Positions 4,662 to 58,792 of a stretch of 59,658 bases of DNA are shown here, in pieces. Source of the stretch: Paracoccaceae bacterium (GTDB lineage Bacteria; Pseudomonadota; Alphaproteobacteria; Rhodobacterales; Rhodobacteraceae); NCBI GenBank assembly GCA_003567315.1, contig PWZT01000056.1, positions 1 through 59,658 of the forward strand. Reading direction: 5' to 3'. The translations under genes and the position numbers were made by a program. Each line of letters starts with the position of its first letter. Positions within the stretch are counted from its first letter, which is position 1. The notes under the pieces are model-generated. The model was not told the DNA's origin and made no database searches. It saw nothing but the letters and a program-made list of their open reading frames with translations.

Positions 4662-5132
4662 ATGGCGATTGCGATCACTGTCAACGGAGAGCGGTATGAG
4701 ACCGATGCCCCGCCCGAAACCCCGCTTCTGTGGGTCTTGCGCGACGAATTCGGCCTGACCGGCACGAAATTCGGCTGCGGGGTTGCGGCCTGCGGGGCCT
4801 GTACGGTTCATCTCGACGGTCAGGCTGTGCGGTCCTGTCAACTGCCGCTGGGCGAGGTCGATGGCGATGTCACCACCATCGAAGGGCTGGCCGAGACCCG
4901 CTATCGCGCGTTGCAGGAGGCCTGGACGCGCCATCAGGTGGCGCAATGCGGGTATTGCCAGTCGGGCCAGATCATGCAGGCGGCGGATTTGCTTGCCGAG
5001 ACGCCCGAGCCCAGCGACGAGGATATCGACGCGGTGATGGGCGGCAATCTGTGCCGCTGCGGCACCTATACGGGCATCCGCGCGGCGATCCATGACGCGG
5101 CGCGCGCGCTCAATGGTGGAGGTGCAGGATGA
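4662..5132 (+). CDS. iorA: [2Fe-2S] small subunit of a molybdenum hydroxylase (IorA type)
   Basis: Carries the two [2Fe-2S] clusters that pass electrons from the molybdenum cofactor of the partner encoded by the next gene. The N-terminal plant-type ferredoxin domain has Cys39, Cys44, Cys47 and Cys59 ([12 protein letters not shown]); the second domain has Cys96, Cys99, Cys131 and Cys133 ([16 protein letters not shown]). At 156 residues from the ATG at 4662 it matches isoquinoline 1-oxidoreductase alpha subunits; a GTG at 4629 is possible, but GAGGA sits correctly for 4662. The stop overlaps the start of the large subunit (ATGA). The true substrate is unknown. Confidence 0.88.
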
Positions 5133-7357
5133 GTCGGCTTGGCAAGATCACGCGGCGCACGCTGCTGGTGGGCGCGGTTGCTGTAGCCGGGGGCGCGGCC
5201 TTCGGTGTCTATCAGATCCGCCGACCCGTGGAAAACCCGCTGCGCCCGGAAGAGGGCGCGACGCTCAACCCCTATGTCATCATCGATCAGAGCGGGATCA
5301 GCATCATCGCGCCGCGCGCCGAGATGGGGCAGGGGGTGCATACCACGCTGGCCGCGCTTGTGGCCGAGGAGCTCGATGCCGATTGGGAGGCTGTGCGCGT
5401 GCTGCACGGCCCGCCCTCTGCGGCCTATTTCAACGGGGCGCTCGCGCATGGGGCGCTGCCTGTGGCCGATTATGCGATGCGCGACTGGCAGCGCCGGGTG
5501 ACCGACGGGCTCGGGGCGGCGTCGAAGCTGCTGGGGTTGCAGGTCACGGGGGGCTCGACCTCGACTGTCGATGCGTTCGAGCGGATGCGGCTGGCAGGCG
5601 CAGGCGCGCGCGAGGCGTTGAAGGCGGTCGCGGCCGAGCGGCTGGGGGTTGCCGTGGCGGAGTTGCGCACGCAGAAGGGGCGCGTGATCGCGCCCGATGG
5701 CAGCGAGATCGACTATCGCGATCTCGCGGAAGAGGCTGCGGGTCGCGATGTGCCGCGTGTTGGTCTGCGCCCGCAATCGGAGTGGAAGCTTCTGGGCCGA
5801 TCGCTTCCGCGCAGTGACATGCAGGCCAAGGTGAGCGGGGCGGCGCAGTTTTCGACCGATATCGTGCTGCCGGGGATGAAATGCGCGAGCGTGCGGATCT
5901 GCCCCTATCTGGGCGGCGGCATGGAGCGCTTCGATCCGGCCCCCGCGCTGGAAGTGCCGGGCGTTGAGCATGTGCTTGATCTCGGCAATGGCGTGGTAGT
6001 GGTGGCGCGCAACACCTGGGCGGCGATGCAAGGCGCCGAGGCGGTCGAGATCGACTGGACGCCCTCGCCGCTGCCCGCGAGCACCGAGGCGATGTATGAC
6101 CAGATCGCGACCGCGTTCGAGGCGCGCGCCAATTCGACCATGCGCGACGATGGCAGCCCCGATGATGTGGAGGCCGCGCTCGAGGTCGAATACCGCGTGC
6201 CGTTTCTGGCGCATTCCACGATGGAGCCGATGGGTGCGACCGCGTGGTTGCAGGACGGGCATCTGACGCTCTGGGTGGGCAACCAGGCACCGCGCGAGCA
6301 TTTGCGCGTGGCGGCCGAGGCGGCGGGGGTCGCGGAGGAGGATGTCACGCTGCACACCGTGTTTCTCGGCGGTGGTTTCGGGCGCCGGGTCGAGACCGAC
6401 ATCACCCGGCAGGCGGCGATGATCGCGGCGAAGCTGGAGGGCACGCCGATCCGGCTGACATGGTCGCGCGAGGAAGACATGCGCCATGATTTCTACCGCC
6501 CCGCCGCGATTGCGCGGATGCGTGGGGCAGTGGCCGAGGGGCGCGCGACGCTGTTTGACGCGAAAATCGCCGCGCCATCGGTCACGCGGCAGGCCATCGG
6601 GCGGCTTGCGGGGCGCGAGATGGGCGGGCCGGACAAGGGCCATGTCGAAGGCGCATTCGATCAGCCCTATGCGATCCCGCATTACCGCGTGGCGGGGCAT
6701 CTGGCCGAGCTGGATGTGCCCATCGGCTTCTGGCGCGCGGTCGGCAGCAGCTTCAACGGCTTTTTCCACGAGAGTTTCATCGATGAGCTGGCCCATGCCG
6801 CCGGGCGCGATCCGCTGCATTTCCGGCTCGATCATGTCGCGCCCGAAAGCGCGGTTGCGGCGGGGGTGCTGGAGGCCGTGCGCGATCTCTCGGACTGGGA
6901 CAGCCCCTTGCCCGAAGACCGCGCGCGCGGGGTGGCGATGACATGGTCCTTCGGCACGCCCACCGCCGTGGTGCTGGAATTGGACAAGACCGACGGCCCG
7001 ATCCGCATCGCGCGCGCCTTCATGGCCTGCGATCCGGGGCTGGTGCTCGATCCGGGCATTGTGCGCGCGCAGATGGAATCGGGGCTGATCTACGGGCTGT
7101 CGGCGGCGCTGATGGGGGAGATCACCTTCACCGATGGCCGCGCCGATCAGGGCAATTTCCCCGAGTATGACGGGCTGCGCATCTTCAACACGCCAAGCAT
7201 CGAGGTGGCGATATTGCAGGACAATCCGCATATGGGCGGTGTGGGCGAGCCGGGCACCCCGCCTGCCATGCCCGCGCTTGCCAATGCGCTTCATGCGCTG
7301 ACAGGCCAGCGCGTGCGCAGCCTGCCGCTGATCCATGCGGCGGATTTCCTGATCTGA
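5129..7357 (+). CDS. iorB: Molybdopterin-binding aldehyde/purine-type oxidase large subunit (IorB type)
   Basis: The 742-residue catalytic subunit of a xanthine dehydrogenase-family hydroxylase. The N-terminus [20 protein letters not shown] resembles a twin-arginine signal, so the folded complex probably acts in the periplasm, as in IorB proteins. Family blocks include [24 protein letters not shown] and, near the end, [15 protein letters not shown] with the catalytic Glu. No cytochrome c subunit and no XdhC-type maturation gene follow, so the electron acceptor and assembly factor must lie elsewhere. Substrates of this family range from N-heterocycles to aldehydes and cannot be assigned here. 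Confidence 0.9.
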
Positions 7358-7387
7358 TACAGAATCGGTGGCGCGGTATGGGGGACG

Positions 7388-7475
7388 AAAAAGCGCCCTC
7401 GGGCCGTGCCCACCCACCCGCCCCTGCACGCCCCGAGGGCGCTGCCCATGCCTGCGGCATGGGCGGGTGATTTTT
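7388..7475. terminator. Bidirectional terminator; copy 1 of a hairpin/G-quadruplex element
   Basis: Stem 1 pairs 7393-7403 (gcgccctcggg) with 7432-7442. Its loop holds, on the minus strand, GGGG-C-GGG-T-GGG-T-GGG (7424-7409), a textbook G-quadruplex motif. Stem 2 pairs gcccatgcc and ggcatgggc (7444-7464). Read plus, TTTTT follows stem 2 (7471-7475); read minus, TTTTT follows stem 1 (7392-7388). It lies between the convergent iorB and P450 genes and can end both. A second copy is at 28157-28227. Confidence 0.75.
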
Positions 7476-7518
7476 CGGGGTTGCGCGTCGTCTCGAGGAT
7501 TTCCGATCCAGCCGCGCG

Positions 7519-8730
7519 TCACAGCACGGCCGGCAGCGCCGCATAGCCGCGAAAGCGGATGCGCCCGCCCGGCTTGCGGCCCTTGCGCAGCTTATACCCG
7601 GGGAAGCGGGCGAGCAGGCGGCTGACGGCGATGCGCCCTTCGAGCCGGGCAAGCGTCAGCCCGACACAGACATGCGGGCCGCCCGCAAAGGCCAGATGGC
7701 GGTTCGGGTGGCGGCGGATGTCGAAACGGTCAGGCTCTGCAAACACCTCCGGGTCGCGATTGGCGGCACCGATGCACAGATGCAGGTTGGTGCCCGGCGC
7801 GATCTCATGCCCGCCGATCTCGACCGTCTCGCGGGTTTCGCGATTGCCGAACTGGTTGGGCGAGAGGAAGCGCAGGCTTTCCTCGATCGCGGGCACGATC
7901 AGATCGGGCTCGGCCAGCAGAACGGCGCGCGCCTGCGGGTGGTCCTCCAGCAGCGCCAAAGTGTTGCCGATCAGATTGGTCGTGGTCTCATGTCCGGCAT
8001 TGAGGATGAAGATGCAGTTCTGCAACAGCTCGCGCTCGGAGAGTTGCGCGCCCCCCGCACTGCCCGTGATCAGCCGCGTGAGCACATCGGTTTCGGGGTC
8101 ACCCGGCGCAGCGCGGCGCCGTGCCACCAGATCGCGCAGATAGGCCGTGAACTCCGCGACCGCGCTGTTGCCGCGCGCAAGCTCGTCCTCGCTCAGCGCA
8201 GGTTCCAGCGCGCCGAGGATCGCAAGCGACCAGTCGCGCAGGGGGCCGCGTTCGTCATGCGGTACATCGAGCAGATTGCCGATGATCTCGATGGGGATGG
8301 CGGCGGCGAAATCCTCGATCAGATCGACGTTTTCGCGTCCCTCCATCGCATCGAGCAGGCTGTCCACGGCAGCGATCAGCCCCGGCTCCATCCGCGCGAT
8401 GGCGCGCGGGGTCAGCGCGGCGGTCATGATCTTGCGCACGCGGGTATGCAGCGGCGGGTCGTTGAACACGAGCGAGGTGGTGTGATGCTCGTAAAGCGGC
8501 GCATCGCGGCCGAATTTCGGGGCGAAGACTTCGGTCTTGTCCGAGGAAAAGCGTTTGGTGTCGCGGTAGATGCGGTCGAGATCGGCATGGCGCGAGATCA
8601 GCACCGAGCCATCGGGCTGGGGCAGCACGGGCGCATGGGCGAGCAGCGCCGCGTAGAAGGGGAACGGATCGTCGCGGAACCCCTCGGGCGGGGTGGCCAG
8701 ATCGAACGCGCGGATGTCTTCTGCCTGCAT
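7519..8730 (-). CDS. Cytochrome P450
   Basis: A soluble bacterial heme-thiolate monooxygenase of 403 residues. The heme-binding loop FAGGPHVCVG places the axial ligand at Cys355. The oxygen-activating I-helix reads LNAGHETTTN and the ExxR pair is in ESLRFL. A GGAGGGAGGA ribosome site precedes the ATG. No ferredoxin or reductase gene lies beside it, so redox partners are elsewhere. It converges on the molybdenum hydroxylase operon; both are oxidative enzymes, but a shared pathway is only a guess. The substrate cannot be told from sequence. Confidence 0.95.
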   Translation of the reverse strand: MQAEDIRAFDLATPPEGFRDDPFPFYAALLAHAPVLPQPDGSVLISRHADLDRIYRDTKRFSSDKTEVFAPKFGRDAPLYEHHTTSLVFNDPPLHTRVRKIMTAALTPRAIARMEPGLIAAVDSLLDAMEGRENVDLIEDFAAAIPIEIIGNLLDVPHDERGPLRDWSLAILGALEPALSEDELARGNSAVAEFTAYLRDLVARRRAAPGDPETDVLTRLITGSAGGAQLSERELLQNCIFILNAGHETTTNLIGNTLALLEDHPQARAVLLAEPDLIVPAIEESLRFLSPNQFGNRETRETVEIGGHEIAPGTNLHLCIGAANRDPEVFAEPDRFDIRRHPNRHLAFAGGPHVCVGLTLARLEGRIAVSRLLARFPGYKLRKGRKPGGRIRFRGYAALPAVL

Positions 8731-17150: not shown

Positions 17151-17154
17151 CCCT

Positions 17155-17182
17155 TTCATCTTGCCCCGAAATACTCACGGGG
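17155..17182 (+). repeat. Dispersed intergenic motif, copy A
   Basis: The string TTCATCTTGCCCCGAAATAC and eight more bases begins five bases after the DAHP synthase stop codon. The reverse complement of 23471-23502 starts TTCATCTTGCCCAAAATACT, matching 18 of 20 bases. Both copies lie in gaps downstream of genes. Confidence 0.6.
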
Positions 17183-17183
17183 T
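17164..17183 (+). terminator. Stem-loop after the DAHP synthase gene
   Basis: Stem ccccg/cgggg with a nine-base loop is followed by TTT. Two further GC hairpins follow (the ctcaagggg/ccccttgag type around 17187-17213 and the ttgaggga/tccctcaa type around 17222-17243). The run of three stems fills the 118-bp gap before the GNAT gene and should stop or slow transcription. The first stem overlaps the dispersed motif at 17155. Confidence 0.5.
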
Positions 17184-17268
17184 TTCTCAAGGGGGGCGTG
17201 CCCCCCCTTGAGGCAGGGAGCTTGAGGGACGGCAGTCCCTCAATCCCCCCCCACCCCGGAGCGCCCTG

Positions 17269-23453: not shown

Positions 23454-23502
23454 GCGCCTGACGGCGCGCTGCCTTCGGCGAGAGTATTTTGGGCAAGATG
23501 AA
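23454..23502. repeat. GC hairpin plus dispersed motif, copy B (minus)
   Basis: The arms gcgcgcc/ggcgcgc at 23454-23471 form a hairpin with a four-base loop. Next to it, 23471-23502 read on the minus strand begins TTCATCTTGCCCAAAATACT, the dispersed motif of 17155-17182. The gap 23364-23788 holds nothing else I can support; the ORFs across it have no family features. Confidence 0.55.
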
Positions 23503-27438: not shown

Positions 27439-27444
27439 TTGTCC

Positions 27445-28101
27445 ATGAACGAAGCGCAGACACGCCAGGCCACGCTTGCCAATCCGCCCGCGCATGACCG
27501 TGTGTATCGCGGCATGCGGCTCCAGATCATGCATGGCGAGTTGCTGCCCGGTCAGGCGCTGACGCTGCGCGGGATCGGCAAGCAATTCGGTGTGTCGATG
27601 ACCCCGGCGCGCGAGGCGCTGCGCCGCCTCACGGCCGAGGGGGCGCTGACCTTGTCGGCCTCGGGGCGCGTGGCGACGCCTGAATTGAGCAATGACCGCA
27701 TCGAGGAGTTGGCGCAGATCCGCGCGCTGCTCGAACCCGAACTGGCCAGCCGGGCGTTGCGGCGCGCCCATCTCGCGCTGATCGACCGGATGGAGAGCAT
27801 CAACGAGGCCAATGCCCGCGCGATCCGCTTGCAGAACCCGGTGGAATATATCCGCACCAATCTGGAGTTCCATCGCACGCTCTATCTGCGCGCGCAGAGC
27901 CCGGCGATATTGGGGTTGCTGGAAACTGTCTGGCTGCAACTCGGCCCGACCATGCGCGCGCTCTACACACGCCTGCGCCGGACCACGGCACCGCCGCATC
28001 ACCGGCTCATTCTCGAAGCGCTGCGCGCGGGCGATGACGCCGCGCTGCGGCTTGCTTTGCGCACGGATGTGACGCAGGGCTTGCGGCATTTGCAGGGGTG
28101 A
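27445..28101 (+). CDS. GntR-family regulator with FCD domain (FadR/LldR type)
   Basis: A 218-residue DNA-binding protein: winged helix at about 20-85 (LTLRGIGKQFGVSMTPAREA, LRRLTAEGALTLSASGRV) and an all-helical FCD ligand domain (about 95-215, with the metal-binding-type residues in TNLEFHRTLYLRA and PPHHRLILEAL). FCD regulators sense small carboxylates and many repress lactate genes. Being divergent from lldD with a palindrome between, it most likely controls lldD. No Shine-Dalgarno precedes the ATG. Confidence 0.88.
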   Translation: MNEAQTRQATLANPPAHDRVYRGMRLQIMHGELLPGQALTLRGIGKQFGVSMTPAREALRRLTAEGALTLSASGRVATPELSNDRIEELAQIRALLEPELASRALRRAHLALIDRMESINEANARAIRLQNPVEYIRTNLEFHRTLYLRAQSPAILGLLETVWLQLGPTMRALYTRLRRTTAPPHHRLILEALRAGDDAALRLALRTDVTQGLRHLQG

Positions 28102-28156
28102 TAGATGCGCGGGCGCTCGGCGCGACTTTTCAGGGCTATGGACCTTGCCGGAAATT

Positions 28157-28227
28157 GCGCCCTCGGGCCGCACCCTCCCACCCGGCCCTGTACGCCCCGA
28201 GGGCGCAGCCCGCGCTGGTGCGCGGGC
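28157..28227. repeat. Copy 2 of the hairpin/G-quadruplex element
   Basis: Stem 1 pairs 28157-28167 (gcgccctcggg) with 28196-28206, identical to the copy at 7393. Its loop reads GGG-CC-GGG-T-GGG-A-GGG on the minus strand (28188-28173). Stem 2 pairs gcccgcgc with gcgcgggc (28208-28227). It lies between the convergent GntR and lolD genes, the same context as copy 1. A run of T is absent here. Confidence 0.75.
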
Positions 28228-28312
28228 GGGCGACACCGGATCGGGGCTCAAGATGATCGCGCGAATGCTGCGTGGGGCCCACGGGTGACGGGACCCAACT
28301 TGCCCCACAGCG

Positions 28313-28996
28313 TCAGGCGGCGCGGATTTCGCCATCCTGCAGATGCACGATCCGGTCCATGCGGCGCGCGAGCGCCAGATTATGCGTCGCGATCAGCGCC
28401 GAGAGCCCGGTTTCGCGCACCAGCGTCATGAGCGCGGCAAAGACCTGATCCGAGGTCGCGGGGTCCAGATTGCCGGTCGGTTCATCCGCCAGCAGCAGCG
28501 AGGGCGCATTGGCGAGCGCGCGGCAGAAGGCCACGCGCTGCTGCTCGCCACCCGAAAGCGCGGCAGGCCGGTGATCGGCACGCGGGGCAACGCCCACGCG
28601 CTCTAGCAGATCGCGCGCCCGCTCTTCGGCCATGCGGGGCGCCACGGCATTGGCGAGTTGCGGCAGCACCACATTCTCGAGCGCGCTGAACTCGGGCAGC
28701 AGATGGTGGAACTGATAGACAAAGCCGATCTGCCCGCGCCGCGCCGCTGTCCGGGTGCGGTCGCCCAGACGGGTCATGTCGGCATCATCGATCATCACTG
28801 AGCCCGTGTCGGGGGTGTCGAGCAGGCCCGCGATATGCAGGAGCGTCGATTTGCCTGCGCCGGAAGGGGCGACCAGAGCGACGACTTCGCCGCGCGCGAC
28901 CTGGAGCGAGGCGTCGCGCAGCACCTGCACCTCATTGCGCTTGCCCGCATTGTAGGTCTTGCAGATATCCGTGAGCACGAGGGCGGTGTCATTCAT
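28313..28996 (-). CDS. lolD: Lipoprotein-releasing ABC transporter ATPase LolD
   Basis: ATPase that powers release of outer-membrane lipoproteins from the inner membrane to LolA. The 227 residues include Walker [12 protein letters not shown], the signature [20 protein letters not shown], Walker [13 protein letters not shown] and the switch His in ATHNLALA, with the LolD-typical stretch [13 protein letters not shown]. Its start overlaps the end of the permease gene by eight bases, so they are one operon transcribed on the minus strand. Confidence 0.94.
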
Positions 28997-57973: not shown

Positions 57974-58792
57974 TCAGGTCTTGGCGCTCCAGCTCAGCGA
58001 GGCGCGCTGGCGCGTGTAGAACTCGCCCAGCATGCCCACCACCAAGGCGACCAGCCCGAACAGGACCGGGTAGAGCGCGGAGGTATACATCGGATTGTAG
58101 TTGATGAAGGCATATCCCCGCGCCTGATCGATGGCATGAAACAGCGGGTTCCAGAGGAAATACTGCACATACGCCTCGGGCAGAGCATTCGCGAGAAAGA
58201 ACTTGCCGGACGCAACCATATTGATGCGCTGTATCAATTGGGTGATCAGCTTGCTCAGGGCCGGTATCCAGGGCTTGAGCGCATAGAGCACAACCCCGAT
58301 TGCCGTTCCCGCGAACCAGACGGCCAGCAGCATGCCCAATGCGGCCATGGGTTTGTGGATCTCCACCGGCGTCCAGATCACATGATACAGGAACAGGATG
58401 ACGAAGACTGTCAGGATCTGAATATACAGCTCGGCCAGCGCCGCCCCGCTGATGGCGATGATGGTGTTCATGGGGCGGTGTTTCATCATCGACGAGGTCG
58501 GGCCGTCGGCGCCAGCGACCGCCCCGATGACCTTGATATGCGCCATGAACAGGAAGACGCCGCTCATCAGATAGATCAGGACATCGCCCCGGATCGCTGC
58601 GGCCCGCATGCCCATGAAAACGAAAATCAACAGGAACACAGCGACCAGCATCATGGTCTGCACGATGTTGATGACCAGACCGATGATCGCATTGCCATGC
58701 GTCTTGCGGACATTGCGCACGGCCTGATTGAAGATCAGCTCCAGGGTCGTGAATGCCAGTACCAGAAAGGAAGTCGTGTGCAGACGTTGCAT
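57974..58792 (-). CDS. Capsule/polysaccharide export ABC permease (KpsM/ABC-2 type)
   Basis: A 272-residue inner-membrane protein of the ABC-2 polysaccharide exporter family, with about six helices (AIIGLVINIVQTMMLVAVFL, LIYLMSGVFLFMAHIKVIGA, LYIQILTVFVILFLYHVIWT). Its C-terminal part FLWNPLFHAIDQARGYAFIN is typical of KpsM-type permeases. The stop is 10 bp from the pyrF stop. Its ATPase partner is not in the window, so the rest of the export locus must lie elsewhere, unusual for this family. Confidence 0.85.
   Translation of the reverse strand: MQRLHTTSFLVLAFTTLELIFNQAVRNVRKTHGNAIIGLVINIVQTMMLVAVFLLIFVFMGMRAAAIRGDVLIYLMSGVFLFMAHIKVIGAVAGADGPTSSMMKHRPMNTIIAISGAALAELYIQILTVFVILFLYHVIWTPVEIHKPMAALGMLLAVWFAGTAIGVVLYALKPWIPALSKLITQLIQRINMVASGKFFLANALPEAYVQYFLWNPLFHAIDQARGYAFINYNPMYTSALYPVLFGLVALVVGMLGEFYTRQRASLSWSAKT

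Follow-up and report, generated by a model that had tools for sequence, protein, structure and literature searches.

REP elements of the GTAG and CGTC super-families are described as dispersed palindromes, present many times per genome, which lie in convergent and unidirectional intergenic regions and near stop codons (PMC3733652). The element analyzed here, a hairpin with a quadruplex-capable loop, fits this description in being dispersed and multicopy and in its position at gene 3′ ends between convergent or co-directional genes. However, CGTC-type REPs are described with an 8–9 bp stem and a 4–5 nt loop (PMC3733652), in comparison with 12–17 bp and about 16 nt in our element, which also has no GTAG or CGTC tag and no RAYT-type match in its own genome, and keeps its loop better than its mid-stem. 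The CcsR or "cuckoo" RNAs of Rhodobacter and Rhizobiales, with CCUCCUCCC loops, likewise come from Alphaproteobacteria and are described as hairpins whose C-rich loop is conserved and whose stems vary (PMC3927594, PMC10253847). By contrast, the core loop of our element is CCCACCCACCCGCCC, without the anti-Shine-Dalgarno motif of those RNAs, and where the cuckoo is presented as a sRNA with tandem hairpins, our element occurs as single copies at many gene ends with its pairing signature on the opposite strand. The repeats with an intrastrand triplex in E. coli, 23 copies in MG1655, are also repeated, intergenic and G-rich with hairpin potential, but their G-rich part is reported to fold on its own hairpin as a triplex, with NMR arguing against a quadruplex (PMC4666352); in our element the G-runs lie apart from the stem, and the two structures could form together. 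A quadruplex-hairpin-duplex switch (Kaplan 2016, as cited in PMC8044849) is grouped here with these repeats. The GGGAATC repeats of Xanthomonas and Nostoc share quadruplex capacity and intergenic positions near gene ends, but are described as heptamers in tandem that have no hairpin stem and lie for the most part between co-directional genes (PMC4692102). The recurrent quadruplex motifs of Methanomicrobiaceae are interspersed, intergenic and G-rich with hairpin potential as well; they are archaeal, however, and their C-rich partner is reported to complement part of the G-runs themselves (PMC8044849). Finally, the quadruplex upstream of nasT belongs to a related bacterium, Paracoccus denitrificans, but is described as a single site upstream of one gene and not as a dispersed gene-end hairpin (PMC5424462). 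In the literature, judged mostly by titles and abstract openings, we found no description of the present element.

The window, i.e., the whole stretch of 59,658 nucleotides analyzed here, carries two copies of the element with the following features.

7388–7392, minus strand: A-tract, giving five U right after hairpin 1 on the minus strand; A7392 also pairs with T7443, and the tract is A-rich in most copies
7392–7443, minus strand: hairpin 1 of copy 1, a 12-bp stem, a C/C mismatch, a 5-bp inner helix and a 16-nt loop
7409–7424, minus strand: four G-runs of copy 1, GGGG-C-GGG-T-GGG-T-GGG, quadruplex-capable
7444–7464, unstranded: hairpin 2 of copy 1, a 9-bp stem GCCCATGCC/GGCATGGGC with a 3-nt loop, followed by T5 on the plus strand at 7471–7475
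28156–28207, minus strand: hairpin 1 of copy 2, with a closing pair T-A instead of A-T
28173–28188, minus strand: four G-runs of copy 2, GGG-CC-GGG-T-GGG-A-GGG
28208–28227, unstranded: hairpin 2 of copy 2, an 8-bp stem GCCCGCGC/GCGCGGGC
5129–7357, plus strand: MoCoBD-domain oxidoreductase gene, left of copy 1, named iorB in the sequence-only reading
7519–8730, minus strand: cytochrome P450 gene, right of copy 1
27439–28101, plus strand: GntR/FCD regulator gene, left of copy 2
28313–28996, minus strand: ABC transporter ATPase gene, right of copy 2, named lolD in the sequence-only reading

The whole elements span 7392–7464 and 28156–28227, and in copy 1 hairpin 2 directly abuts hairpin 1. A preceding sequence-only reading had proposed a terminator hairpin with a G-quadruplex in its loop and a covarying second stem, in two copies; both were found where it had placed them, and the two-arm stem pattern with any loop matched these two places in the window and no place in 100 dinucleotide shuffles. 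Its 11-bp stem proved to be a stem of 12 bp (A7392–T7443), extended beyond the C/C mismatch by the inner helix, and the identity of stem 1 in copy 2, taken as exact, holds except for the outer pair, where T28156–A28207 replaces A-T, itself a paired change. The four G-runs were as proposed; the hairpin loop proper is of 16 nt, and in copy 1 the outermost G of one run also serves to close the inner helix. As that reading had it, copy 2 keeps four runs with other spacers, stem 2 differs on both arms between the copies, and both copies lie between convergent genes; the gaps are 7358–7518 (MoCoBD/P450) and 28102–28312 (GntR/ABC ATPase). For copy 1, for which fold z-scores were computed, we obtained −4.5 on the plus and −4.6 on the minus strand, and 0 of 200 shuffles folded equally well. 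No Rfam family scored above its gathering threshold at either copy. Elsewhere in the window, RF02645 (Ruegeria cis2 sRNA) was matched at 58079–58231 on the plus strand with 50.4 bits, for a gathering score of 50.

The two copies are members of a dispersed family, so that the observation is larger than the two elements first noticed. In the genome that the window comes from, the stem pattern with any loop of 8–38 nt was found at 26 places (27 rows, as one place was matched twice, once per strand) and at none in the reversed control; at each place one strand has a C-run loop, in one case with a broken run. A relaxed stem pattern gave 33 places. A covariance model built from 29 copies gave 52 matches in the same genome, with at least one place counted on both strands, and it also matched 19 of 35 further genomes of the genus, so that the copies in relatives which the first reading called for do exist. 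The number per genome ranged from 0 to 70, the maximum being in G015. No match was obtained in 24 genomes from other families of the class, and in a family-wide sample, at a stricter setting with 14 candidates scored per genome, 3 of 293 genomes outside the genus had matches. The loop alone, with one mismatch allowed, was found in 19 of 37 genus genomes, with 1 match in the reversed control (G015). A loop scan of named genomes returned 28 stretches, every title being Rhodobacteraceae or Natronohydrobacter; some of these isolates come from soda-lake sediments. The copies examined below are the better-scoring matches (best 45 of 52 in the own genome, 41 of 70 in G015, 10 of 21 in G033 and 8 of 13 in G006, plus part of those from the remaining genomes). 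Two sets with 146 model matches were reduced to 140 copies after 4 duplicates and 2 antisense matches were dropped, and the stem arms could be parsed in 134 of them. The copies outside G015 include a few single-hairpin copies.

Among 134 classifiable copies, 85 lie between convergent, 45 between co-directional and 4 between divergent genes, in comparison with 6 convergent pairs among 49 gene pairs of the window, genes being called by a codon-usage script trained on the window. Two copies (L081 and L085) lie apparently within a called minus-strand reading frame. The family thus has the general traits of a REP, a multicopy extragenic palindrome at gene 3′ ends that is rare between divergent genes. 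The more specific tags are not there: when the ends of hairpin 1 were inspected, GTAG was found within 12 nt upstream of 1/134 copies and downstream of none, CTAC of 0 and 2, while CGTC was near 7 and 3 and GACG near 7 and 2 of the 134 copies, in a count that leaves out TGTC and CCTC. The context is REP-like, yet the features that define REPs fail. Outside G015 the element is also oriented with respect to the genes: the C-rich strand is co-directional with the left gene in 87/96 copies, the G-rich strand with the right gene in 69/95.

Four runs of three or more G, separated by spacers of 1–3 nt, were present on one strand in 131/140 copies, when 7.3 were expected after shuffling of the loop letters, and in no copy on the other strand; all spacers are of one base in 112 of the 140. 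The runs are thus kept beyond what a GC-rich genome gives by chance, with the reservation that the search model rewards a quadruplex-capable loop and that figures of loop conservation carry this bias. The concern that this conservation is an artefact of the model is lessened, without being removed for other species, because the any-loop stem pattern gave C-run loops at the 26 own-genome places and because, in a locus-based look, four runs were kept at one junction in 7 species. Among the 138 core-aligned copies, letters other than C on the plus strand filled 31 of 1656 run cells and off-consensus letters 69 of 414 spacer cells, i.e., departure from the consensus is about nine times rarer at run positions than at spacers. 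Of 17 copies whose fourth run has lost its first C, 15 have a C directly after the run, compared to 57 of 116 otherwise (P about 0.003, Fisher test, with 58 entered where the count gives 59 and the relatedness of the copies uncorrected). The best ViennaRNA fold included a predicted quadruplex in 137/140 copies; the quadruplex energies of this program were set aside, since a gain of about 30 kcal/mol is implausibly large. The claim of a quadruplex in the loop is upheld as to the capacity of the loop; conservation supports a kept fold of the G-rich strand, putatively as a quadruplex, whose formation we infer from sequence only.

The stems vary in a different way. In the alignment of 88 rows from the second set, which was fitted to the structure of the model and leans towards it, and which still includes one antisense match, standard pairs filled 94.0% of the pair cells compared to 77.3% after shuffling, and both sides had changed in 16 of 20 pairs, which 0 of 500 shuffles reached; the covariation score was 0.398, in comparison with at most 0.085 for slid structures. 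The compensatory change first read from two copies is supported by this alignment. Stem 2 was Watson-Crick in 821/835 cells (94 of the 99 copies outside G015 with a stem 2 passing the score threshold), a rate that is partly built in since these hairpins were chosen as best-pairing, and its sequences vary widely. Among hairpins found by the loop alone, several have unrelated stems, such as L290 (G010) with about 22 pairs. The copies of G015 are mostly single hairpins without stem 2, with AAA before and TTT after, and in some of them (e.g., L163, L154 and L144) the palindrome runs on into the flanking DNA. Overall, both stems vary by paired substitution while the loop stays, a pattern suggesting that the fold serves some purpose and is maintained for it.

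The mispaired positions indicate which strand may be under selection. In the two innermost variable pairs of the 94 parsed copies outside G015, 81 of 82 non-Watson-Crick cells are A.C on the plus strand, equivalent to G.U on the minus strand, with no G.T among the 82; in 21 copies a tandem T.C/C.T on the plus strand corresponds to a tandem G.A/A.G, a stable motif, on the minus strand. Because these inner departures are G.U on the G-rich strand, the fold of this strand is probably the selected one, and the tandem G.A/A.G points the same way. The wobble lies mostly in these two pairs, which many copies have inherited, and its changes are shared among related copies; mutational bias may account for part of the signature, and single-stranded DNA would leave the same signature as RNA. 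Over the whole set of 134 parsed copies, the pairs other than these two gave 19 A.C for 10 G.T. Outside G015, the C/C at pair 13 in 54/94 copies and the G/G at pair 14 in 4/94 suit neither strand, stem 2 had no strand bias (4 G.T and 3 A.C), and the G015 copies had neither the pairing asymmetry nor the orientation bias.

This signature bears on an alternative in which the C-rich plus strand is the working RNA, a 3′-UTR hairpin whose C-rich loop is bound by a protein or by pairing RNAs in the manner of CcsR/cuckoo. The co-direction of the left gene with the C-rich strand and of the right gene with the G-rich strand speaks for it, and a hairpin with a CTCCTCCC loop lies 3′ of the acyl-CoA dehydrogenase gene in G010, G012 and G020, where other species carry the quadruplex-loop hairpin; in G019 it is near that gene. 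However, the inner non-Watson-Crick pairs suit the G-rich strand, the loop is without an anti-Shine-Dalgarno motif, and the CTCCTCCC pattern, searched with one stem type, occurs once per genome in 4/37 genomes (L269–L272), not in the own genome, and once in the reversed control. We consider this alternative unlikely. Membership in the cuckoo/CcsR family itself was rejected: the core loop of the aligned copies differs from the CCUCCUCCC motif in tandem hairpins, and with the stem type searched the CTCCTCCC hairpin was confined to a single locus.

Some positions of the element are common to several species. At the junction of a photolyase-like gene and the acyl-CoA dehydrogenase gene, the element is present in 7 species with four runs kept and diverged stems. 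At a junction beside an alpha/beta-hydrolase gene, five species carry it with the loop kept and differing stems; Pfam gave the hydrolase for one neighbour and no match for the other, and we take the two genes to be bchO and crtC. The TCGGG stem type makes up 30 of the 45 own-genome copies examined, and at convergent junctions its copies lie at a median of 52.5 nt from the left stop codon, in comparison with 9 nt for other stem types. The copy-1 junction is without the element, with its flanking genes adjacent, in six relatives (G005, G006, G010, G016, G021 and G033) with gaps of 11 to 128 nt; the gap of G030, read in part, is 360 nt. These data fit a gene-end element of which a part may have spread recently.

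They also raise the alternative of a selfish, REP- or MITE-like miniature mobile element whose G-run loop serves its own mobilisation and not the host. The range of 0 to 70 matches per genome in one genus, the dominance of the TCGGG type and the empty copy-1 junction in the six relatives agree with such an element. Against it, at the copy-1 junction, where the intergenic DNA of the relatives was not alignable by eye, we could define neither a clean empty site nor a target duplication; several positions are common to species, one of them to 7, with diverged stems; and the orientation is biased relative to the genes. In addition, the Y1 transposase PF01797 (RAYT), for which we searched the own genome together with 21 of the 35 others from the genus, had no match in the own genome (G000) or in G015, the two richest, although it was strongly matched in G001, which has 14 element matches. 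A selfish origin of this kind appears improbable, and a RAYT-borne REP was rejected on the absence of PF01797 from the two richest genomes, even if the copy-bearing G001 has one.

A second dispersed repeat was observed alongside. TCTTGCCNNAAATACTC, at 23482–23498 of the window on the minus strand, occurs at 97 places of the own genome with at most one mismatch and at none in the reversed control. A relative of it lies in the iorB-like/P450 junction, that of copy 1, in G006, G016 and G033, and in the own genome it is within about 100 bases of two quadruplex-loop elements, on contigs C69 and C84. At 17151–17260 of the window, past a gene end, CTTGCCCCGAAATACTC, a longer-spacer variant, is followed by GGGGGGCGTGCCCCCCC, which is perhaps the same second repeat.

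The sequence-only reading had taken the hairpin for a terminator, and this part of it stands in part. The convergent gene ends, the short U-tract and the T-rich tail at copy 1 speak for it; the shortness of the U-tract and the orientation of the co-directional copies, mostly opposite to the one expected, speak against it. On the G-rich strand only about 3–4 U follow the hairpin, and the upstream A-tract has about three A per seven bases in ++ and +− contexts alike, being no stronger when a minus-strand gene is present. A terminator scanner found nothing on the minus strand at either copy, its loop limit of 8 nt excluding hairpin 1 by construction; on the plus strand it found stem 2 of copy 1 with its T-rich tail and nothing at the copy 2 element, and no T-tract follows stem 1 on this strand outside G015. 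Co-directional copies outside G015 number 25 in the ++ arrangement, with the C-rich strand as sense strand, and 7 in the −− arrangement (21 and 7 with orthologues collapsed by hand). This excess of ++ is the opposite of what a plain terminator in the RNA of the G-rich strand predicts. The element is thus one of gene ends, but what it mainly does is not just to end the transcripts of the minus-strand gene by intrinsic termination, and minus-strand termination as its only function is contradicted by the orientation. An ordinary bidirectional intrinsic terminator, its G/C-rich loop being incidental to a high genomic GC content or to recent copying, would suit the convergent junctions, the A-tract ahead of the hairpin, the AAA and TTT flanks of most G015 copies and the T-rich tail behind stem 2 of copy 1, but is quite improbable, given a loop that stays constant across species while stems diverge, even in loop-found hairpins with unrelated stems, four runs in far more copies than expected, and a stem 1 without a T-tract behind it outside G015.

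Taken together, we observed a multicopy family at gene ends with stems of paired change, a loop of four G-runs and a strand-specific pairing signature. We tentatively favour, at somewhat below an even chance, a dispersed REP-like element that would mark and insulate gene 3′ ends as a transcription boundary, and whose G-rich strand would form a quadruplex-capped hairpin. This strand would fold into a hairpin of 12–17 bp capped by a three-tetrad G-quadruplex, and the capped hairpin may act as a barrier to transcription. At a convergent junction, the capped hairpin and a short U-tract would be part of the right-hand gene's RNA, and the left-hand mRNA would end with two stable hairpins and a C-rich loop. 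Where the left gene alone faces the element, the capped hairpin would lie in its template strand and could slow RNA polymerase. A more specific proposal, possible but doubtful, is that of a natural family of quadruplex-capped hairpins selected on the folded G-rich strand as a strand-specific barrier, which would act in RNA as a capped terminator for the gene on one side and in the template strand as a roadblock for the gene on the other.

If this more specific proposal is true, the family would offer a bacterial quadruplex with comparative support of its own, in which runs are kept, spacers are free and the fourth run is restored by a shift. To our knowledge, evidence for selected, and not merely possible, bacterial quadruplexes is scarce. 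The 140 copies, whose stems change while their G-runs are fixed, may serve as a natural experiment on quadruplex selection, and a genus whose genomes have between 0 and 70 matches each would allow a direct test of the effect of the element on transcript ends and of its mode of spread.
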